Shown here piece by piece: positions 39,646 through 49,201 of a DNA stretch of 64,000 nt. The position numbers and the translations under genes were made by a program. The stretch lies in contig NZ_CP012150.1 in the NCBI RefSeq assembly GCF_001187505.1, positions 682,001 to 746,000 of the forward strand. Reading direction: 5' to 3'. A model generated the notes under the pieces. It was not told where the DNA came from. It worked only from the letters and a program-made list of their open reading frames with translations, and did not search any database. The DNA comes from Mycolicibacterium goodii. Lineage in GTDB: Bacteria > Actinomycetota > Actinomycetes > Mycobacteriales > Mycobacteriaceae. The stretch's first letter is position 1. Every line of letters starts with the position of its first letter.

Positions 39646-40896
39646 ATGGATACCGGAACAACAGCATTCATGCTGTGTTGCATCATCGGGCTCACGCTGA
39701 TGATCCCTGGCCTTGCGCTGTTCTACGGCGGCATGGTCTCGGTCAAGAGCTCGACCAACATGATGATGATGACCTTCGGTGCGGTCGCCGTCGTCGGCCT
39801 GCTGTGGGTCCTCTTCGGATTCTCGATGGTCTTCGGTACGTCCTACGGCGGATTCGTCGGCAGCTTCACCGAGTTCGCCGGCATGAAAGATCTGCTCGAG
39901 CCCATGACCACCGTCGACGGGCTGCCGATCAGCTTGTTCGCGGTGTTCCAGGCGCTGTTCGCCGCGATCACCGTGGCCCTGATCTCCGGTGCGGTCGCCG
40001 ACCGGATGAAGTTCGGCGCCTGGATGATCTTCGCGGCCCTGTGGGCGGTGCTGGTGTATTTCCCGGTCGCCCACTGGGTTTTCGCGTTCGACGGCACGGT
40101 CACCGAGAACTCGGTCGGCGGCTGGATCGCCAACAAGCTCGGCGCCATCGACTTCGCGGGCGGCACCGCCGTGCACATCAATGCCGGTGCGGCGGCGCTC
40201 GCGCTGGCGATCGTGCTGGGCAAGTCGGCGATGTTCGGCCGACGCAAGCCGCACAACGTGCCGCTGACCCTGCTCGGCGCTGGCATGCTGTGGGCCGGTT
40301 GGTATGCGTTCAACGGCGGTTCGGCGCTGTCGGCGGGTAACTCGGCCTCGATCGTCATGGTCACCACGTTCGTCGCGACTTGCGCCGCGGTGCTGGCATG
40401 GCTGGCCGTCGAGAAGGTCAGGACCGGTCACGTCACCGGTGTCGGTGCGGCATCCGGCGCCATCGCCGGCCTGGTCGCCATCACCCCGGCGTGCGGTGCG
40501 GTCACGCCGATCGGTGCGATGTTCGTCGGCGGCATCGCCGGTGCGGTCTGCGTGATCGCCGTCGGCCTGAAAGAGACGTTCGGGTACGACGATTCACTCG
40601 ACGTGGTCGGCGTCCACCTCGTGGGCGGCCTGATCGGCACACTGCTGATCGGTTTCTTCGCCAGCGAGGGCATGCCCAACGGCGTCAACGGTCTGTTCTA
40701 CGGCGGCGGCATCGAGCAGCTGTGGAAGCAGGCCGTGGCGGCCGGTGCGGTGATGATCTATTCGTTCGCGATCGCCTACGTCATCGCGTTCGCGATCAAG
40801 AAGACCATGGGCATCCGCATCTCGCCCGACGAGGAAGAGAAGGGCATCGACGTCAAGTTCCATCGCGACGCGGCGTACGAGCTCGAATCCGTCTGA
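39646..40896 (+). CDS. amt: Ammonium transporter (Amt family)
   Basis: The transporter has 416 residues from ATG 39646 with GAGGAG 8 nt upstream; a start at 39604 lies in the regulatory region and is rejected. Eleven hydrophobic helices are visible. The twin-histidine pore pair is H177 (AVHINAGAAALAL) and H324 (VVGVHLVGG), and the recruitment aspartate is D169 (IDFAGG). It imports ammonium under nitrogen limitation. No glnK follows, unlike the main amtB–glnK–glnD operon of actinobacteria, so this is an accessory transporter. Its place in front of the glnT block suggests joint nitrogen control. The 131-bp gap to glnT (40897-41027) has an ACGAAGGA ribosome site and a GC-rich stretch. Confidence 0.95.
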   Translation: MDTGTTAFMLCCIIGLTLMIPGLALFYGGMVSVKSSTNMMMMTFGAVAVVGLLWVLFGFSMVFGTSYGGFVGSFTEFAGMKDLLEPMTTVDGLPISLFAVFQALFAAITVALISGAVADRMKFGAWMIFAALWAVLVYFPVAHWVFAFDGTVTENSVGGWIANKLGAIDFAGGTAVHINAGAAALALAIVLGKSAMFGRRKPHNVPLTLLGAGMLWAGWYAFNGGSALSAGNSASIVMVTTFVATCAAVLAWLAVEKVRTGHVTGVGAASGAIAGLVAITPACGAVTPIGAMFVGGIAGAVCVIAVGLKETFGYDDSLDVVGVHLVGGLIGTLLIGFFASEGMPNGVNGLFYGGGIEQLWKQAVAAGAVMIYSFAIAYVIAFAIKKTMGIRISPDEEEKGIDVKFHRDAAYELESV

Positions 40897-41027
40897 TCCT
40901 GTTGATGATTCCCCGGGCCGGCCGCCGCCCAGGCTTCTGCGCGGTGTCCGGATCCGGGGCTTCGTCGGCTTGCCGAAGTTTCATCCTGTGATACGTTGAT
41001 TCCCAACAAGAGACGAAGGATTGTCCG

Positions 41028-42332
41028 ATGACCTCTGATCTCGCCACCCTCGCCGAACGCAACGGCACCAAGTTCATCCTCGCGTTGTTCGTCGACCTGC
41101 GCGGAAAACCTTGCGCGAAGCTGGTTCCCGTCGAGGCCATCGAGATGCTGGCCACCGAGGGCGTCGGCTTCGCCGGTTACGCCGTCGGTGCGATGGGCCA
41201 GGAACCCAAGGACCCCGATCTGGTCGCGTTGCCGGATCCCGCGTCGTTCACACCCATCCCGTTCATCAAGGAGGGTCTGGCGCTCGTGCACTGCGATCCG
41301 CACGTCGAGGGCAAGCCCTGGGCGTACGCACCGCGGGTGATCCTCAAGAAGCTGATCCAGCAGGCCGCCGACGGCGGATTCGAACCGTGGGTGGGCGCCG
41401 AGGTCGAGTATTTCCTGTTGCGCCGCAACGCCGATGGCACGTTGGTCACCGCCGACGCCGCCGACACCTCCGCACAGCCGTGTTATGACGCGCGCGGGCT
41501 CACCCGGATGTACGACCATCTGACCGCGATCTCGACGGCGATGAATTCGCTGGGCTGGTCCAACTACGCCAACGACCACGAGGACGGCAACGGCCAGTTC
41601 GAGCAGAACTTCGAGTTCGCCGACGCGCTCACCACCGCTGACCGCGTGGTCACGCTGCGCTACCTGCTGTCGATGATCGCGGCCGAACGCGGCATGGTCG
41701 CCACGTTCATGCCCAAACCGTTCGCCGACCGCACCGGCAGCGGACTGCACTTCCACCTTTCGCTCACCAGCGGTGGCAACCCGGTGTTCCCTTCGGATAC
41801 CGACGAGCGGGGCCTCGGCCTGTCCGACACCGCCTACTCGTTCCTGGCCGGCATCCTCGACCACGCCTGCGCCCTGCAGTCCGTCGTCGCGCCAACCGTC
41901 AACTCCTACAAGCGAACCGGGGCAACCAGCACGGCATCCGGCGCGTCCTGGGCGCCCCGGCTGCCCAGCTACGGCGGCAACGACCGCACCCACTACATCC
42001 GGGTGCCCGACAACCAGCGCATCGAGATGCGCGGCGGTGACGGCTCGGCCAACCCGTACCTGGCGATCGCCGCTGCGCTGGGAGCGGGCCTCGACGGCAT
42101 CAAGCGCAGCATCGATCCGGGTCCGGTCGGCAGCCGCGGCAGCACGGCACTGCCGCCCACGCTGCTGCACGCGGTGGACGCGCTGGAGGCCGATCCTGTG
42201 GTCACCGGCGTGCTCGACAGCGCGGGCGAGGGTGTGGCCGCCTACTTCGCGAACCTCAAACGCGAGGAGTTCTTCACCTACCACGGCACGGTGACGCCGT
42301 GGGAGGTCGACACCTACCTCACCGCTTTCTAG
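41028..42332 (+). CDS. glnT: Glutamine synthetase family protein (GlnT / GMA-synthetase-like)
   Basis: This 434-residue protein has the glutamine synthetase fold of the short GlnT group: the β-grasp start KFILALFVDLRGKPCAKLVPVE, the metal-binding segment WVGAEVEYFLL, NDHEDGNGQFEQNFEF, the ATP-side segment GSGLHFHLSL, and RIEMRGGDGSANPYLAIAAAL. GlnT and γ-glutamylmethylamide synthetase (GmaS) are close relatives, and both occur directly before the same split glutamate-synthase-like genes seen here. So the ammonia donor could be NH3 or a methylated amine. It is the first gene of a co-directional run to 47123. Confidence 0.85.
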   Translation: MTSDLATLAERNGTKFILALFVDLRGKPCAKLVPVEAIEMLATEGVGFAGYAVGAMGQEPKDPDLVALPDPASFTPIPFIKEGLALVHCDPHVEGKPWAYAPRVILKKLIQQAADGGFEPWVGAEVEYFLLRRNADGTLVTADAADTSAQPCYDARGLTRMYDHLTAISTAMNSLGWSNYANDHEDGNGQFEQNFEFADALTTADRVVTLRYLLSMIAAERGMVATFMPKPFADRTGSGLHFHLSLTSGGNPVFPSDTDERGLGLSDTAYSFLAGILDHACALQSVVAPTVNSYKRTGATSTASGASWAPRLPSYGGNDRTHYIRVPDNQRIEMRGGDGSANPYLAIAAALGAGLDGIKRSIDPGPVGSRGSTALPPTLLHAVDALEADPVVTGVLDSAGEGVAAYFANLKREEFFTYHGTVTPWEVDTYLTAF

Positions 42333-42363
42333 TTCCGAAATTCCCGAGAGGAGAACAAACGTC

Positions 42364-43233
42364 ATGTGCGGGATCGTGGGGTTACACCTGCGTACAGCCG
42401 AGCTCTATCCCAGGCTGGGTGAACTGCTCACCGAGATGCTGTGCGAAATGTCGGACCGGGGCGCCGATTCGGCGGGCGTCGCGGTCTACGGCGATCCGGT
42501 GTGGTCACCCCAGGGGCGCGGCTGTGTCTCGGTGACCGACATCGCCGAGACACCCGACCTCGGTCCCGATGTCGAGGTGGTGCAGGTCGATTCGACGTAC
42601 CTGCTGTCCGCGGACACCCCGTCGGAGGATCTGCTCGAGCGCGTCAAGGCGGCTTACCCGACGGCGCTGATCGCCGGGTTCGGCTCCGATCTCGCGGTGC
42701 TCAAGGGTGTCGGCCACCCGCGTGCGCTCACCGATGCGTGGGGCCTGGCCAAGGCCCAGGGCTGGCAGGGCGTCGGCCACACCCGCATGGCGACCGAATC
42801 CGCGGTGACCCCGTCGGGTTGCCACCCGTACACCGTGGGACCCGAGCAGTGCCTGGTGCACAACGGATCCTTCTCCAACCACGCCACGATCCGGCGCGAA
42901 CTGCGCCGGGCCGGTGTGCAGTTCGACAGCGAGAACGACACCGAGGTGGGTGCGCGGTTCGTCGCAAGCCAACTCGCCGCGGGACGCGACGTGGAGACCG
43001 CGCTCAAGGAGCTGTGTGCGACGTTCGACGGTTTCTACACGCTGCTGGTGTCCAACCGCGACTCGTTCGCCGTGGTGCGCGACGCGATCGCGTGCAAGCC
43101 CGCCGTCATCGCCGAGACCGAGGAGTGGGTCGCGATGGCCAGCGAGTACCGCGCACTGTCCGGCCTGCCGGGCGTCGAGAAGGCGCGAATCTGGGAACCC
43201 GAACCGGAGGTGGTCTACGCATGGACCAGGTAA
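42364..43233 (+). CDS. glxB: Class II glutamine amidotransferase (GlxB/MgsA-like)
   Basis: The product has 289 residues with the Ntn-type N-terminus MCGIVGLHL, Cys2 being the nucleophile. GHTRMATESAVTPSGCHPYTVG and CLVHNGSFSNH are the glutamine-binding loops. It corresponds to the amidotransferase piece of glutamate synthase made as a separate protein, as in GlxB or MgsA (N-methylglutamate synthase). It would hydrolyse glutamine or a γ-glutamylamide and pass ammonia or methylamine to the FMN subunit. ATG 42364 follows GAGAGGAG. The last 13 bases overlap the next gene. Confidence 0.88.
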   Translation: MCGIVGLHLRTAELYPRLGELLTEMLCEMSDRGADSAGVAVYGDPVWSPQGRGCVSVTDIAETPDLGPDVEVVQVDSTYLLSADTPSEDLLERVKAAYPTALIAGFGSDLAVLKGVGHPRALTDAWGLAKAQGWQGVGHTRMATESAVTPSGCHPYTVGPEQCLVHNGSFSNHATIRRELRRAGVQFDSENDTEVGARFVASQLAAGRDVETALKELCATFDGFYTLLVSNRDSFAVVRDAIACKPAVIAETEEWVAMASEYRALSGLPGVEKARIWEPEPEVVYAWTR

Positions 43234-43919
43234 CCGTCGGCCTCACCGAGTTCGACCTGCGCACAACACCTCTGCGAGAGGTCAACGCGGCACTGCACCA
43301 GCCGGGCATCGAAGGTGAGTTCGTCATCGAGCATCCCGCCGGGGCGCACAACGTGGCCGTCGGCGTCGACGCGCCGGTGCGGGTCCGCGTCGAAGGCCAC
43401 GTCGGCTACTACGCCGCGGGGATGAACCAGCAGGCCGAGATCCTCATCAACGGCAACGCGGGCACCGGCGTCGCCGAGAACATGATGAGCGGCACCGTGC
43501 GGGTCAAGGGCAACGCCTCGCAGTCCGCGGGAGCCACGGCCCACGGTGGCCTGCTGGTGATCGAAGGCGACGCGGCCGCCCGCTGCGGCATCTCGATGAA
43601 GGGCATCGACATCGTGGTCGGCGGCAACATCGGCCACATGAGCGCGTTCATGGCGCAGGCCGGCCGGCTGGTCGTTCGTGGCAATGCCGGTGAGGCGCTT
43701 GGTGATTCGATCTACGAGACCCGCATCTACGTGCGCGGCGATGTCGCGTCACTCGGCGCGGACTGCATCGCCAAGCCGATGCGGCAAGAGCACCACGCCG
43801 AACTCGCCGAGCTGCTGGCGGCCAGTGGATTCGGTGACGACGACACCTCGGAGTACACGCGCTACGGCTCGGCCCGAAACCTGTACCACTTCCACGTCGA
43901 CAATGCGAGCGCCTACTGA
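43221..43919 (+). CDS. glxC: GXGXG-motif glutamate synthase-like subunit (GlxC/MgsB-like)
   Basis: This 232-residue protein starts at ATG 43221, inside the end of the previous gene. It is a β-helix of repeated G-x-G-x-x-x-G units (EGHVGYYAAG, NGNAGTGVAENM, KGNASQSAGA, GGNIGHMSAFMAQAG, RGNAGEALGDSIYETR), the GXGXG domain found at the C-terminus of large glutamate synthases. It acts as a structural partner between the amidotransferase and FMN subunits. Its stop overlaps the next ATG (TGATG). The much longer upstream frame is a shadow. Confidence 0.9.
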   Translation: MDQVTVGLTEFDLRTTPLREVNAALHQPGIEGEFVIEHPAGAHNVAVGVDAPVRVRVEGHVGYYAAGMNQQAEILINGNAGTGVAENMMSGTVRVKGNASQSAGATAHGGLLVIEGDAAARCGISMKGIDIVVGGNIGHMSAFMAQAGRLVVRGNAGEALGDSIYETRIYVRGDVASLGADCIAKPMRQEHHAELAELLAASGFGDDDTSEYTRYGSARNLYHFHVDNASAY

Positions 43920-45262
43920 TGAGCCACACCACCGATGACCGCGCCCGGCTCGGCCTGCGCGAATCCGCCACGTTCGACCGGACCACGATCGCCGCGATCC
44001 AGCGGGCCGCCGAGACCGGCGTCTACGACATCCGCGGCTGGGGCGCCAAGCGCCCGCTGCCGCACTTCGACGACCTGTTGTTCCTGGGCGCATCGATGTC
44101 GCGGTACCCGCTGGAGGGCTACCGCGAACGCTGCGGCACCGATGTCGTCCTGGGCGATCGGCACGCCAAACACCCGCTGCACCTGGACATCCCGGTCACC
44201 ATCGCCGGTATGAGCTTCGGCGCGCTGTCCGCAGGGGCCAAGGAGGCGCTGGGCCGCGGCGCCAGCGAGGTCGGCACGTCGACCACCACCGGCGACGGCG
44301 GCATGACGCCCGAGGAGCGCGGCCAGAGCAAGCACCTGGTGTACCAGTACCTGCCGTCACGCTACGGCATGAACCCCGACGACCTGCGCAAGGCCGACGC
44401 CATCGAGGTGGTGCTCGGTCAGGGCGCCAAGCCGGGCGGCGGCGGAATGCTGCTGGGCCAGAAGATCTCCGAGCGCGTCGCGGGTATGCGCACGCTGCCG
44501 CAGGGCATCGACCAGCGCTCGGCGTGCCGGCATCCGGACTGGACCGGCCCCGACGATCTCACCATCAAGATCAACGAGTTGCGGGAGATCACCAACTGGG
44601 AGAAACCGATCTACGTCAAGGTCGGCGCCACCCGCACCTACTACGACGTCAAGCTCGCGGTGCACGCAGGCGCCGATGTGGTGGTGGTCGACGGAATGCA
44701 GGGCGGCACGGCCGCCACGCAGGAGGTGTTCATCGAGCACGTCGGCATCCCGACGCTGGCCGCGATCCCGCAGGCCGTGCAGGCACTGCAGGAACTCGGC
44801 GTGCACAGAAAAGTGCAACTCATCATCAGCGGCGGCATCCGCAACGGCGCCGACGTGGCCAAGGCCCTCGCGCTCGGTGCCGACGCCGTCGCGATCGGCA
44901 CGGCCGCGCTGATCGCGCTGGGCGACAACCATCCCCGGTACGCCGCCGAGTACGAGAAGCTGGGCAGCGCAGCAGGTTTCTACGACGACTTCCAGGACGG
45001 CCGCGACCCGGCCGGCATCTCGACGCAGGATCCCGAACTGGCGGCCCGCTTCGACCCGATCGAGGGCGGCCGGCGACTGGCCAACTACCTGCGGGTGCTG
45101 ACGATGGAGGCCCAGACCATCGCGCGCGCGTGCGGCAAGGCCCACGTGTGCCACCTGGAACCCGAGGATCTGGTGGCCGTCACGATCGAGGCCGCCGCGA
45201 TGGCGCGGGTGCCGCTGGCGGGTACCGACTGGATCCCGGGCCGGGGGGCGGGCGCGCTGTGA
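43919..45262 (+). CDS. glxD: FMN-binding glutamate synthase-like subunit (GlxD/MgsC-like)
   Basis: This is a 447-residue TIM-barrel of the glutamate synthase central/FMN domain. Substrate and flavin segments are IAGMSFGALSAGAKEALGRGA, TSTTTGDGGMTPEERG, KVGATRTYYDVKLAV, VVVDGMQGGTAAT and the FMN-phosphate loop ISGGIRNGADVAKALALGADAVAIGTA. The C-x5-C-x4-C pattern that binds 3Fe-4S in large glutamate synthase is not evident; cysteines occur at the end in ARACGKAHVCHLEP. With the two previous genes it forms a three-part enzyme that transfers an amino or methylamino group to 2-oxoglutarate. GTGA couples it to the next gene. Confidence 0.88.
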   Translation: MSHTTDDRARLGLRESATFDRTTIAAIQRAAETGVYDIRGWGAKRPLPHFDDLLFLGASMSRYPLEGYRERCGTDVVLGDRHAKHPLHLDIPVTIAGMSFGALSAGAKEALGRGASEVGTSTTTGDGGMTPEERGQSKHLVYQYLPSRYGMNPDDLRKADAIEVVLGQGAKPGGGGMLLGQKISERVAGMRTLPQGIDQRSACRHPDWTGPDDLTIKINELREITNWEKPIYVKVGATRTYYDVKLAVHAGADVVVVDGMQGGTAATQEVFIEHVGIPTLAAIPQAVQALQELGVHRKVQLIISGGIRNGADVAKALALGADAVAIGTAALIALGDNHPRYAAEYEKLGSAAGFYDDFQDGRDPAGISTQDPELAARFDPIEGGRRLANYLRVLTMEAQTIARACGKAHVCHLEPEDLVAVTIEAAAMARVPLAGTDWIPGRGAGAL

Positions 45263-46446
45263 GTGTCACCGCAGATGTCGTGATCGTCGGCGGCGGGCTG
45301 GAGGGGACCGCCGCCGCCTGGGCCCTGAGCCAACGCGGGGTCACCGATGTCGTTGTCGCCGAACGCAACACCGTCGGCTCCGGCATGACCGGAAAGTCCA
45401 GCGGAATCGTGCGCTGCCACTACGGCGTGAGCTCGCTGGCGGCCATGGCCGCGGTGGGCCTGGAGGTCTTCGAGAAAGCCGCGGAGATCTTCGGGACCGA
45501 CATCGGCTTCCGCCAGACCGGCTACGTCGTCGGCGTCGGCGAACCCAACGTCGACGCGCTGCGCAAGAGCCTGGCCGCGCAGCGGCAGGTGGGGGTGCAG
45601 ACCGAGGAGATCGACAAGTCCGAGGTCGCCGTACTGTGGCCGTGGGCCGATCTCGAACAGTTCGCGGCCTTCGGCTGGGAGGCCCGCGGCGGCTACGGCG
45701 ACGCCTACCAGACCGCACAGGCGTTCGCGGTGGCCGCACGCGCGGCGGGGGTGCGAATCCGCCAGGGCGCCAACGTCACCGAGCTCCTGTTCGACGGTGA
45801 CCGGGCCACCGGCGTGCGGCTGGCCGACGGCACCGAGGTGGCCGCCGGCACCGTCGTCGTCGCCACCGGCGCCTGGACCCGGCCGTTCCTGGCGCCCTAC
45901 GGCGTCGACATCCCCATCCGGGTGGTGCGCGAGCAGATCGTCACCATCTTCCCCGGGATCGAGGTCGGCGCCATCCCGGTGTTCTCCGATCTGGTGTCGC
46001 TGCAGTACGTCCGCCCCGAACTGGGTGGCGAGATCCTGTTCGGCAACAGCGATCTGGGCCACGGCGAGCCGGCCGATCCGGACAACTACCTCAACCGCGC
46101 CACCGAGGAGTTCATCGACGTCACCGTCGAGAAGGTCGGCACGCGTTTTCCCGGGTTCCCGGACGCGGCCATCACCGGCAGCTACGCGGGCTGCTACGAC
46201 GTCACCCCGGACTGGAACCCGGTGATCTCGAAGACCGGTGTGGACGGGCTCATCGTCGCGGCCGGCTTCAGCGGGCACGGTTTCAAGATCGCGCCCGCCG
46301 TGGGCCGGCTGGTGGCCGATCTGGTGGTCGACGGGCGCAGTTCCGACCCGCGGATACCCGAGACCGATTTCCGGTTGAGCCGGTTCGCCGAGGACAATCT
46401 GCTCAAGAGCCCGTATCCGTATGTGGGAGCGGGCGAGATGCGCTGA
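45259..46446 (+). CDS. FAD-dependent amine oxidoreductase (SoxB/DadA-like)
   Basis: This is a 395-residue flavoprotein from GTG 45259, overlapping the FMN-subunit stop. The dinucleotide motif VVIVGGGLEGTAAAWAL is at 7-23. The DAO fold continues with GSGMTGKSSGIVRCHYG, ATGAWTRPFLAPYG and the C-terminal GCYDVTPDWNPVI and AAGFSGHGFKIAPAVGRLVADL, typical of sarcosine oxidase β-like and glycine oxidase-like enzymes. It likely oxidises a secondary amine or N-methyl amino acid. The α, γ and δ subunits of sarcosine oxidase or N-methylglutamate dehydrogenase are absent, so it works alone or with remote partners. Confidence 0.87.
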   Translation: MSVTADVVIVGGGLEGTAAAWALSQRGVTDVVVAERNTVGSGMTGKSSGIVRCHYGVSSLAAMAAVGLEVFEKAAEIFGTDIGFRQTGYVVGVGEPNVDALRKSLAAQRQVGVQTEEIDKSEVAVLWPWADLEQFAAFGWEARGGYGDAYQTAQAFAVAARAAGVRIRQGANVTELLFDGDRATGVRLADGTEVAAGTVVVATGAWTRPFLAPYGVDIPIRVVREQIVTIFPGIEVGAIPVFSDLVSLQYVRPELGGEILFGNSDLGHGEPADPDNYLNRATEEFIDVTVEKVGTRFPGFPDAAITGSYAGCYDVTPDWNPVISKTGVDGLIVAAGFSGHGFKIAPAVGRLVADLVVDGRSSDPRIPETDFRLSRFAEDNLLKSPYPYVGAGEMR

Positions 46447-46472
46447 GTCGATGCCGAACAGGAGGGGATCAC

Positions 46473-47123
46473 GTGAGCGACGACGTTCCGCTGCTCCGCA
46501 ACAAATCCGGGACAGCCCGCGAACGTGATCCCCAGGCACCGGTCGAGGAACTGGAGTTCGAGGCCGCGATCGGTCGCAACGTGCGCCGGCTGCGCCAACA
46601 GCACGGTCTCACCGTCGCCGAGATGGCAGCCCGCGTCGGCATCTCCAAGGCGATGATGTCGAAGATCGAGAACGCGCAGACCTCGTGCAGCCTGTCCACG
46701 TTGGCGCTGCTGGCGAAGGGGCTCGACGTGCCCGTCACGAGCCTGTTCCGCGGCGCCGACGTGGAACGGCCCGCGGCTTTCGTGAAAGCCGGAACCGGCC
46801 CGGAAATCGTCCGCAACGGCTCCAAGCAGGGCCATGAATACCAATTGCTGAGTTCACTGCGCGGCGAGCACAAACGGCTCGAATGCCTGCACGTCACCCT
46901 CACCGAGAAAAGCCAGACCTATCCGCTTTTCCAGCACCCCGGCACCGAGTTCATCTACATGCTCGAAGGCGTCATGGACTACAGCCACAGCCGTACGGTG
47001 TACCGGCTGCAACCTGGCGACTCGCTGCAGATCGACGGTGAGGGCGCGCACGGACCGGTGGATCTGGTCGAATTGCCGATCCGTTTTCTGTCGGTCATCG
47101 CATTCCCCGATTCACAGGTCTGA
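46473..47123 (+). CDS. XRE-family regulator with C-terminal cupin domain
   Basis: This 216-residue protein starts at GTG 46473, with AGGAGGGG upstream. The helix-turn-helix is at ~33-88 (NVRRLRQQHGLTVAEMAARVGISKAMMSKIE), and a cupin_2 domain is at ~130-205 (FQHPGTEFIYMLEGVMDYSH, LQPGDSLQIDGEGAHGPVDLVE). This layout (PuuR/SutR type) senses a small metabolite and often controls amine or amino acid oxidation genes. It is last in the glnT run, 26 bp after the FAD enzyme, and the divergence-free layout suggests autoregulation of the block. A hairpin terminator follows. Confidence 0.92.
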   Translation: MSDDVPLLRNKSGTARERDPQAPVEELEFEAAIGRNVRRLRQQHGLTVAEMAARVGISKAMMSKIENAQTSCSLSTLALLAKGLDVPVTSLFRGADVERPAAFVKAGTGPEIVRNGSKQGHEYQLLSSLRGEHKRLECLHVTLTEKSQTYPLFQHPGTEFIYMLEGVMDYSHSRTVYRLQPGDSLQIDGEGAHGPVDLVELPIRFLSVIAFPDSQV

Positions 47124-47136
47124 GTTTCCCGGTTCG

Positions 47137-47160
47137 CACCGACCGGGCGCGCTGTCGGTG
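47137..47160 (+). terminator. Hairpin closing the glnT–xre run
   Basis: CACCGAC (47137-47143) and GTCGGTG (47154-47160) form a 7-bp stem with a 10-nt loop, followed by TTTGTGG. It lies 13 bp after the regulator stop. The rest of the gap to 47301 is AT-richer than the surroundings and should contain the promoter of the nitrile hydratase genes, ending in an AAAAGGGGG ribosome site. Confidence 0.55.
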
Positions 47161-47301
47161 TTTGTGGCCGGATGCCCATCGCGGTGCGAGCGGACTAAGC
47201 ATTTTCGCAGGCGTAAAAACCCGGAATTGCACTGCGCAAACACCCGCGCATGGTTACAGTTCGCGTGTCGATTTCATGGCGGACTTCAAAAGGGGGCCCA
47301 C

Positions 47302-48141
47302 GTGAGTTCAGCCGCCGAACGGGCAGCGAAATTGGAACTGGTGGGTCGCCTCAAAGCGCACTTCCCGGAAATACCCGACGCCCCGCCACCCGACCTCGTC
47401 GACCATGACCGGTTCCTCGCGTACATGAAGACGGTCCACGACGTCGGCGGTGAACCGGACGCGCCGATGAAGTACGAGAACAAGGAGTACGAGTACTGGG
47501 AGCACATGACCTACGTCATCTGCGAGGTGCTCGCATGGCGTGGCATCTGGCTCTCCGAGGAGCGCCGCCGCATCGGCAACGTCGACGTGGGACGCGCCAT
47601 CTACCAGGGCATCCCCTACTACGGTCGGTGGTTGTGGGCCGTTGCCCGGGTGCTGATCGAAAAGCACCACATCAGCCACGGTGAACTCACCGAACGCATG
47701 GTCGAGGTGCAGGAACGCTACAAGGACGGGCTGGCCGCACGCACGCTGGAGGCCACACCGAGATCCGAGGGTGACGGCGCCGGGGTCAGACGCAACGAAC
47801 ACCACATCCGCGCGGTCGGAATCGGCGACCCGCAGATCTACGCCGGGACGGCGGGCACCCCAAGGTTCTCGGTCGGCGAGGCCGTGGTGGTGCGCGACCT
47901 GCCCGCCCTGCTCTACACGCGCACACCCGAATACGTGCGCGGTGCCCAAGGCGTGATCGCGGAGGTCACCTACGAGAGCCCGGCGCCCGAGGACGAGACC
48001 TGGGACCGCACCGACGCCAAACCCGAGTGGTTCTACATCGTGCGCTTCAACCTCTCCGAATTGTTCTACGGCTACACCGGAACGACGACGGACACACTGC
48101 AAACCGAGATCCCCGAACGCTGGTTGGAGAAGAGCGTATGA
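47302..48141 (+). CDS. Nitrile hydratase/thiocyanate hydrolase beta-type subunit
   Basis: The product has 279 residues from GTG 47302 after AAAAGGGGG. The helical N-terminal domain contains MKTVHDVGGEPDAPM and EYWEHMTYVICEVLAWRGIWLSEERRRIG, then YQGIPYYGRWLWAVARVLIEKHHI. The C-terminal part is an SH3-like barrel (FSVGEAVVVRD … FYIVRFNLSELFYGY … IPERWLE), the fold of nitrile hydratase β. The ICEVLAW/SEERRR features are closer to thiocyanate hydrolase β than to classical nitrile hydratase, as far as I can judge unaligned. It is the first gene of a three-gene operon with ATGA coupling to the metal subunit. Confidence 0.8.
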   Translation: MSSAAERAAKLELVGRLKAHFPEIPDAPPPDLVDHDRFLAYMKTVHDVGGEPDAPMKYENKEYEYWEHMTYVICEVLAWRGIWLSEERRRIGNVDVGRAIYQGIPYYGRWLWAVARVLIEKHHISHGELTERMVEVQERYKDGLAARTLEATPRSEGDGAGVRRNEHHIRAVGIGDPQIYAGTAGTPRFSVGEAVVVRDLPALLYTRTPEYVRGAQGVIAEVTYESPAPEDETWDRTDAKPEWFYIVRFNLSELFYGYTGTTTDTLQTEIPERWLEKSV

Positions 48142-48848
48142 GCGGTAATCACGATCACGACCATGACCATGACCGCACGGTGAAACCCATGGTCGACGAG
48201 GTCACCGACTTCGAGGTGCTCGAGATCGCGTTGCGCGAACTGTGCATCGAGAAGGGCATCTTCACCGCCGAGGAGCACCGCCGGTTCACCGAGTTCGCCG
48301 AGCAGATCGGGCCGACGCCGGCCGCGCGCCTGGTGGCCAGGGCCTGGCTGGACCCCGACTTCAAGCGCCTCGCACTCACCGATGCGCTGGCCGCCAGCAA
48401 GGAGGTGGGCGTCGACTGGCTGGAACCCACCGGGTTCGGAACCCCCAGTGATTTCACGGCTTTCAAGATTCTCGAGGACACCCCGACGCTGCACCATGTG
48501 ATCGTGTGCGCGTTGTGCTCGTGTTACCCGCGGCCGATCCTGGGCAACTCCCCCGAGTGGTACCGCACGCCGAACTACCGCAGGCGACTCGTGCGTTGGC
48601 CCCGGCAGGTGCTCGCCGAGTTCGGGCTGTATCTGCCCGACGATGTCGAGGTCCGCGTGGAGGACTCCAACCAGAAGCACCGGTTCATGGTGATGCCGAT
48701 GCGCCCCGAGGGCACCGACGGCTGGACCGAGGATCAACTCGCCGAGATCATCACCCGCGACTGCCTTATCGGCGTCGCGCTGCCCAAGCCGGGGGTCACC
48801 ACCAACGTGATCGTCGATACCCGTCCCGCGATCCACCCGGCGGGTTGA
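48138..48848 (+). CDS. Nitrile hydratase alpha / thiocyanate hydrolase gamma-type catalytic subunit
   Basis: This 236-residue catalytic subunit has the metal claw V-C-A-L-C-S-C with C124, C127, S128 and C129; in this family two cysteines are oxidised and Co(III) or Fe(III) is bound by the thiolates and main-chain amides. Conserved surroundings are PRPILGNSPEWYRTPNYRRRLVRWPRQVL and EGTDGWTEDQLAEIITRDCLIGVALP. Alanine in the third position is unusual (Thr in Co, Ser in Fe nitrile hydratases). RDCLIGVA recalls thiocyanate hydrolase γ. The N-terminus is a His-Asp repeat (NHDHDHDHDR) that may bind metal. The reaction is either nitrile to amide or thiocyanate to COS and NH3. Confidence 0.85.
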   Translation: MSGNHDHDHDHDRTVKPMVDEVTDFEVLEIALRELCIEKGIFTAEEHRRFTEFAEQIGPTPAARLVARAWLDPDFKRLALTDALAASKEVGVDWLEPTGFGTPSDFTAFKILEDTPTLHHVIVCALCSCYPRPILGNSPEWYRTPNYRRRLVRWPRQVLAEFGLYLPDDVEVRVEDSNQKHRFMVMPMRPEGTDGWTEDQLAEIITRDCLIGVALPKPGVTTNVIVDTRPAIHPAG

Positions 48849-48850
48849 TC

Positions 48851-49201
48851 GTGCCCGAGCTGCCCGACCACCTTCCCACCCTCAGCCACATCGTCGAGCG
48901 CAACCAGACCTGGCCGGTGATGGCCGCCAAGTACGGCGTGGAAAACCCTGTGCCGCCGTGGAAGTCGAGCCTCGACGGAATGTGCGACGCGCTCGACCGT
49001 TCGGCGTGCGGACCGGAGGTGCTGAACTTCAAGGACCGCCGTGACGAGGAGGACACCCTGTCGGCGACGGTGTACGCCGATGTGCCCTACCCGGAGAATC
49101 AGCTACTGGCGCTTGCGCATTCACTGCTCGCGCGTGGGGTGATCGACGAAGCCGAACTGCAGCGGCGCATCGAGACCGTGCGCGCCCGGCTTGAGGCCTG
49201 A
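48851..49201 (+). CDS. Small third subunit or activator of the nitrile hydratase-like enzyme
   Basis: This 116-residue protein starts at GTG 48851, 2 bp after the catalytic gene. It reads PELPDHLPTLSHIVERNQTW, then PVMAAKYGVENPVPPWKSSLDG, and ends in a helical segment (LLALAHSLLARGVIDEAELQRRIETVRARL) like the N-terminal domain of nitrile hydratase β. Two roles fit: the extra small subunit of three-part enzymes (thiocyanate hydrolase, toyocamycin nitrile hydratase) or a metallochaperone-activator of the α subunit. No separate P47K-type activator gene is present nearby. The longer frame from 48506 is a shadow. Confidence 0.72.
   Translation: MPELPDHLPTLSHIVERNQTWPVMAAKYGVENPVPPWKSSLDGMCDALDRSACGPEVLNFKDRRDEEDTLSATVYADVPYPENQLLALAHSLLARGVIDEAELQRRIETVRARLEA

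Follow-up and report, generated by a model that had tools for sequence, protein, structure and literature searches.

Two neighbouring nitrogen-salvage modules in Mycolicibacterium goodii: a plausible variant of the N-methylglutamate pathway and predicted thiocyanate hydrolase genes

The sequence analysed, called the window below, is a 64,000-nucleotide stretch of Mycolicibacterium goodii (G000:C1:682001-746000; G000, the source genome, is 7.1 Mb in one contig). A block of ten genes within it (Table 1) consists of two adjoining but separate nitrogen-salvage modules, at positions 39646-47123 and 47302-49201. The first, amt-glnT-glxBCD-oxidase-xre, is a conserved unit of mycobacteria and Gordonia. 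The reading favoured here, with moderate confidence and from sequence comparison, is that the two modules act separately, the first being an N-methylglutamate route that would end with a single-chain oxidase and the second a thiocyanate hydrolase. Plausibly new are the single-chain oxidase and an alanine in place of glutamine in the GlnT amine pocket, both of putative function. Overall, the block is an ordinary neighbour pair, of which one member is plausibly a new form of N-methylglutamate pathway.

All ten open reading frames of 39646-49201 were confirmed on the + strand, each with a family match (weak for the last one), and the ten-gene order given in an earlier note on this sequence was upheld. 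Far beyond chance, genomes G077 and G014 have the complete block as well, and many relatives have its first seven genes. Its gene order is that of msmeg_6259 to msmeg_6267 of M. smegmatis as named in papers.

GlnT matched gamma-glutamylmethylamide synthetase (GmaS) chain 7cql in the PDB at 377 bits and 9qur at 346 bits; the best ordinary glutamine synthetase (GS) reached 197, 180 bits below GmaS. The available text of the GmaS structure paper reports that Ala48' of GmaS takes the place of Asp50' of GS, and lists the residues of the methylamine site (PMC7948447). Site residues were mapped onto the window GlnT through the PDB alignment with a chain offset of 20. Ala was found at the Asp50' position of the GS ammonia site, as in GmaS, and six of the seven GmaS site residues were kept (K30, Y147, D177, E179, E186 and N188), Gln175 being replaced by Ala. 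This replacement was present in 23/23 mycobacterial GlnT aligned and 0/6 proteobacterial ones (a count that omits two weak GlnT matches, L022 and L026, 26% identical, both included in the tree), and in 81/81 GlnT from 82 oxidase-bearing loci, one locus having no GlnT match. In a 23-row tree, the 12 actinobacterial GlnT formed one clade (100/100), sister to the RhGmaS clade (87/88). 9qur, the other methylamine ligase of known structure, fell outside both clades, with a long-branch warning. From scores, active site and context we infer that GlnT is a GmaS-type ligase.

The likening of GlnT plus GlxBCD to gmaS-mgsABC in the earlier note stood up to family and site comparison. Present from the canonical N-methylglutamate pathway are a GmaS-type ligase without the Asp50' of GS (the tree fork being only 87/88) and a three-subunit MgsABC synthase. 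GlxD is 76-82% identical to six proteobacterial GlxD (L060-L065), and the XRE-cupin regulator shares 43-46% identity with XRE genes lying close to glxBCD in 5/6 proteobacterial plasmid loci. The Acinetobacter plasmid cluster L060 contains two Amt genes and an XRE gene; its GlxD is 82% identical to that of the window and its GlnT only 38%. From these identities, ligase and synthase genes seem to have been shuffled.

The oxidase, 395 residues long, follows glxD in 80/80 loci, these being the best 80 kept of 199 relatives. It scored 130 bits against the SoxB family TIGR01373 (cut-off 529) and is 25-27% identical to three SoxB-type chains; an MgdA/SoxB orthologue was rejected on both counts. No genes for alpha, gamma or delta partners occur among the ten. 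In G000 no SoxB was found over the cut-off and no SoxA at E<=1e-80, and MgdABCD/SoxBDAG was not detected. At the same threshold SoxA was not found in 44 of the 57 genus genomes with glxC. These results agree with the earlier note, which had a single FAD oxidase in place of the missing N-methylglutamate dehydrogenase.

Arg52 and Lys343 of the oxidase align with Arg70 and Lys359 of 2gag_B, the Arg/Lys pair of SoxB that presumably holds the substrate carboxylate. SoxB His173, which we take to be the attachment site of covalent FMN, corresponds to Ala149 in the oxidase and is kept in the three proteobacterial SoxB-type chains. Arg52, Ala149 and Lys343 were invariant across seven aligned oxidases, a pattern that fits a predicted single-chain, FAD-only enzyme for N-alkyl amino acids. 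The oxidase is 92% identical to an M. smegmatis protein. A phylum-wide search matched 6/396 genomes at E<=1e-90; five of the six belong to the window's own family, which makes this a narrow family of oxidases. In the sixth, G542, glnT-glxBCD-oxidase (51%) is followed by an additional gene and xre, with amt on the opposite strand. By eye, that additional gene (in locus L165), of 421 residues and lying between oxidase and regulator, is M20-type amidohydrolase-like. No text assigning the single-chain oxidase a role was found among the open-access PMC texts, as far as these were available.

Related clusters adjoin dimethylamine monooxygenase (dmm) genes in other mycobacteria, Gordonia and Paracoccus. 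Upstream of glnT-glxBCD-oxidase lie DmmA, reductase and HODM genes in one mycobacterial locus, L053, and reductase and HODM genes in another, L055; L054 and L056 contain genes of the same clusters as these dmm neighbours. An S-(hydroxymethyl)mycothiol dehydrogenase gene follows the oxidase in L055 (TIGR03451, 666 bits), with a gene of the same cluster in L056. HODM, amt and the operon run in the same direction in 6/7 Gordonia loci, and in Paracoccus sp. MA (L061) dmm, glxBCD, glnT and soxBDAG genes lie within 18 kb. HODM was found in 37/148 genomes of the genus, 34 of which also have glxC (kinship uncorrected). G000 itself has a DmmA-reductase-HODM set at G000:C1:3688689-3693006 (L076 6690-11007), unlinked to the window and accompanied by an Amt gene in the opposite orientation. 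This set looks like a dimethylamine monooxygenase and resembles msmeg_4635-4638, to which, by order and names, it is probably orthologous. A second HODM-like gene lies at 7211-9482 of L077 (G000:C1:5778000-5795000), with regulator and transporter-like frames nearby by eye.

A GmaS-like GlnT, dmm-linked relatives and the lack of detected SoxA and SoxB together point to an N-methylglutamate pathway with a single-chain oxidase at its last step. By family, active site and context, GlnT would use ATP to couple the gamma-carboxyl of glutamate with a small primary amine, methylamine being the likeliest. GlxB, GlxC and GlxD, as an N-methylglutamate synthase by family, would transfer the amine onto 2-oxoglutarate, yielding N-methylglutamate and glutamate. 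In a step that would be new, the oxidase would replace MgdABCD and convert N-methylglutamate to glutamate and formaldehyde. Methylamine might come from dimethylamine through the HODM/DmmA genes elsewhere in the genome. Extended to mycobacteria and Gordonia together, the proposal is of a distinct, nitrogen-regulated N-methylglutamate pathway in which the 395-residue oxidase and the Ala-pocket GlnT replace MgdABCD, methylated or slightly larger amines are used for nitrogen only, and formaldehyde passes to the mycothiol route; we regard this wider proposal as evenly balanced.

The role of the first genes is partly anticipated in the literature, cited here as far as the text of each source was available. 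Two mycobacteria (141 and 155) that use methylated amines have Gma and MgsABC and no intact methylamine oxidase gene (McTaggart 2015, PMC5023230). Gma and MgsABC were proposed there for methylamine, and the statement in the earlier note that such a pathway had not been described was too strong. In M. smegmatis, counterparts of both modules are up in nitrogen limitation, msmeg_6259-6264 are part of the GlnR response, amt1 (msmeg_6259) is GlnR-dependent, and msmeg_4635-4638 respond 18- to 32-fold in a GlnR-dependent manner.

Several points weigh against the N-methylglutamate route as proposed. In the available text of McTaggart 2015 (PMC5023230), the last step was assigned to homologues of MgdABCD at other places in the genome, and SoxA is present in 13/57 glxC genomes, where it could perform that step. 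Plasmid clusters of Acinetobacter, S. meliloti and P. yeei contain glnT-glxBCD without an oxidase homologue in the fetched stretch; that of S. meliloti stops 1 kb past glnT, and in P. yeei a different FAD oxidoreductase is encoded close by. HODM lies within ~8 kb of glxC in only 5/34 genomes (G019, G031, G056, G084 and G143), a rate not far above the 3/50 for thiocyanate genes given below. GlnR binding upstream of msmeg_4638 was undetected in the text available. A serious objection is that M. smegmatis, given 10 mM methylamine as its only source of nitrogen, failed to grow, according to the accessible part of PMC4222082. Finally, the Ala for Gln175 in all examined actinobacterial GlnT may mean a different, larger amine.

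The last two points lead to the rival that survives best, in which the same enzymes act through an N-alkylglutamate on ethanolamine, ethylamine or another primary amine, methylamine not being the physiological substrate. The Ala common to all the mycobacterial and oxidase-linked GlnT counted above speaks for it, as does an EutB gene near the operon in L053, with a gene of the same cluster in L054. Ethanolamine, in the same partly available source, gave GlnR-dependent growth of M. smegmatis (PMC4222082), a use for which ethanolamine ammonia-lyase alone could account. The same Ala is present in clusters adjoining dimethylamine monooxygenase genes (L053-L056 and Gordonia), where methylamine is the expected product, and we consider this rival unlikely. 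The negative growth result is not final, because urea also failed to support growth despite urease activity; dimethylamine is not mentioned in the available text (PMC4222082). Either another amine is the substrate, or an inducer is needed, or formaldehyde is limiting.

A second rival is scavenging of low ammonia, in which GlnT would be an ordinary type III glutamine synthetase, GlxBCD would be a glutamate synthase in split form and the oxidase would act on another amino acid. It would suit the NCBIfam family name (type III glutamate--ammonia ligase), the ammonium transporter in the operon and the nitrogen-starvation response seen in the M. smegmatis literature available. The family name is shared by the solved GmaS 7cql, the GmaS site is kept but for one residue with Ala at the Asp50' position, and the oxidase follows glxD in every locus kept, with dmm neighbours in relatives; this rival is judged improbable.

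The first module was compared with the thiocyanate genes for co-occurrence and adjacency. Among the 148 genus genomes, the gene for the thiocyanate hydrolase gamma chain was found in 98, glxC in 57 and both in 50 (Fisher p 1.3e-5, uncorrected for kinship, related genomes not being independent). The two genes lay within 5 kb in only three of these 50. This count is a lower bound, because 26 of the 51 gamma-glxC pairs compared sit on different contigs, some near contig ends; 25 are on one contig, three of them adjacent. Among the 80 oxidase loci, a set that overlaps the genus genomes, glxD was found in 80, glnT in 79 and an xre homologue in 78, and thiocyanate genes flank the oxidase in two (M. 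wolinskyi and Mycolicibacterium sp. S2-37). Locus neighbours were compared by matches with a query coverage of 40% or more, and for these 80 loci with identity above 33% as well. In the 20 thiocyanate loci fetched, no neighbour was common to more than a small group. The ask-leuA interval contains three of these loci, two of which, L020 and L025, are without glnT-glx. One operon of ten genes was rejected as a conserved unit on these grounds.

A joint pathway from a nitrile, thiocyanate or an N-methyl compound to glutamate, as the earlier note had suggested, is very improbable: the genes adjoin on one strand, co-occur as counted above and are up together in nitrogen limitation in the M. smegmatis literature available, but the rarity of adjacency leaves such a pathway unsupported, and the thiocyanate cassette recurs in other neighbourhoods. 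We know of no chemical step that joins the products of thiocyanate to N-methylglutamate. Ammonia released by scnBA-scnG-scnP would join the same pool as the first module without being one of its steps. The M. smegmatis counterparts of the two modules do not always respond together: msmeg_6259-6264 occur in the GlnR paper and msmeg_6266/6267 do not, while the PII paper has msmeg_6266/6267 and none of msmeg_6259-6264, each in the portion available. In Candidatus Mycobacterium methanotrophicum, a plasmid (L059) carries a glnT-glxBCD-oxidase block flanked by integrase and transposase genes, a position which suggests that the first module is mobile.

By sequence, the second module is a thiocyanate hydrolase with fused beta and alpha subunits. 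Enzymes of this family are of the cobalt type and convert thiocyanate to ammonia and carbonyl sulfide. The earlier note had called these three genes nitrile-hydratase-like. ScnG passed the curated cut-off of TIGR03887, and both nitrile-hydratase families failed (TIGR01323, alpha, 211 bits, cut-off 250; TIGR03888, beta, 85 bits, cut-off 152). In the PDB, scnG matched the gamma chain of Thiobacillus thioparus, 2dd4_C, at 381 bits and its best nitrile hydratase at 198. A nitrile hydratase identity was rejected by these family cut-offs and PDB scores. One frame, scnBA, matched T. thioparus chain B (2dd4_B, 134.5 bits) and then, in tandem, chain A (2dd4_A, 109 bits). Its family and PDB scores were computed from a start at 47290; GTG 47302 is the more likely start. 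The motif VC[ATS]LCSCYPRP was present in 39/39 thiocyanate loci scanned, from 35 distinct genomes. The Arg that follows CxxCSC (YPRP) is present in scnG and is Trp in the mutant 3vyg and in nitrile hydratase 4ob1.

In tblastn, a single segment ran across the beta and alpha halves in 35 of the 39 loci; there were two segments each for L038, L169 and L170, and a partial match for L029. The fusion is not universal, because the beta and alpha parts are in different frames in L170 and L169 (other genera) and in L038 (a genus member). ScnP, found in all 39 loci, had no PDB match at E<=1; by analogy, we take it to be a probable metallochaperone or activator. For mycobacterial thiocyanate hydrolase, the literature searched, as far as available, gave annotation and expression data and no functional study. 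A second, distant relative of nitrile hydratase alpha, 39% identical, lies at G000:C1:1864304-1864852 (L002).

Table 1. Genes of the two modules, with positions in the window and supporting matches
Gene and predicted product	Position	Strand	Match or feature
amt, ammonium (possibly methylammonium) transporter	39646..40896	+	TIGR00836 415 bits; msmeg_6259 (amt1) orthologue by gene order
glnT, gmaS-like gamma-glutamyl-amide synthetase	41028..42332	+	TIGR03105 633 bits, cut-off 470
glxB, mgsA-like class II glutamine amidotransferase subunit	42364..43233	+	GATase_6/7; N-terminal MCGIVG
glxC, mgsB-like subunit	43227..43919	+	GXGXG
glxD, mgsC-like FMN glutamate-synthase subunit	43919..45262	+	Glu_synthase PF01645 301 bits
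Single-chain FAD oxidase, DAO family; proposed N-alkylglutamate oxidase	45259..46446	+	DAO 218 bits
XRE-cupin regulator, accompanies glx module	46473..47123	+	XRE + Cupin_2
scnBA, fused thiocyanate hydrolase beta+alpha chain	47302..48141	+	2dd4_B then 2dd4_A in one frame
scnG, thiocyanate hydrolase gamma chain	48138..48848	+	TIGR03887 405 bits, curated cut-off 291; metal motif VCALCSCYPRP
scnP, small NHase_beta_N-like protein	48848..49201	+	PF21006 23.1 bits, cut-off 21.5

The window was also scanned for non-coding features. The tRNA and Rfam scans of the window gave no match, and the sigma-70 promoter and terminator scan gave nothing above shuffled sequences. A GlnR-box scan by consensus was not informative, because amt and scnBA each had three 7-of-9 matches upstream.

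The first module shares with the proteobacterial gmaS-mgsABC-mgdABCD pathway (Ruegeria, Paracoccus, Aminobacter) a GmaS-like ligase, a three-gene MgsABC and, in relatives, dimethylamine monooxygenase linkage. It differs in having no detected MgdABCD and a single-chain oxidase instead, in Ala for Gln175 of GlnT, and in the nitrogen-starvation control of its M. smegmatis counterpart. Like heterotetrameric SoxB/MgdA, the oxidase belongs to the DAO family and has Arg52 and Lys343; unlike it, the oxidase has Ala at the His173 position and shows low identity, and the block encodes no partner subunits. Mycobacterium sp. 141 and 155 have the same ligase and synthase genes with the same proposed methylamine role; their last step was given to MgdABCD homologues, the single-chain oxidase not being mentioned in the text available (PMC5023230). 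By order, msmeg_6259-6264 and 6266/6267 of M. smegmatis are the same block, with no known difference, annotated amt1, glnT, glutamate synthase and oxidoreductase and, in the sources available, already thiocyanate hydrolase for msmeg_6266/6267. The second module resembles T. thioparus thiocyanate hydrolase (2dd4) in its beta and alpha chains and in the gamma CxxCSC motif followed by YPRP, and differs in that beta and alpha are fused in most mycobacterial copies seen.

If the oxidase does act on N-methylglutamate, a function would be given to six genes of the GlnR response, msmeg_6259-6264, and these would be linked with the co-induced msmeg_4635-4638 (by order and names an ammonium transporter and a dimethylamine monooxygenase). 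The predicted thiocyanate hydrolase beside them is a widespread mycobacterial gene set. With such an oxidase, methylated-amine nitrogen would enter the biology of environmental mycobacteria and Gordonia, and the enzyme would be a one-chain substitute for MgdABCD, so that surveys requiring MgdABCD would miss such organisms.

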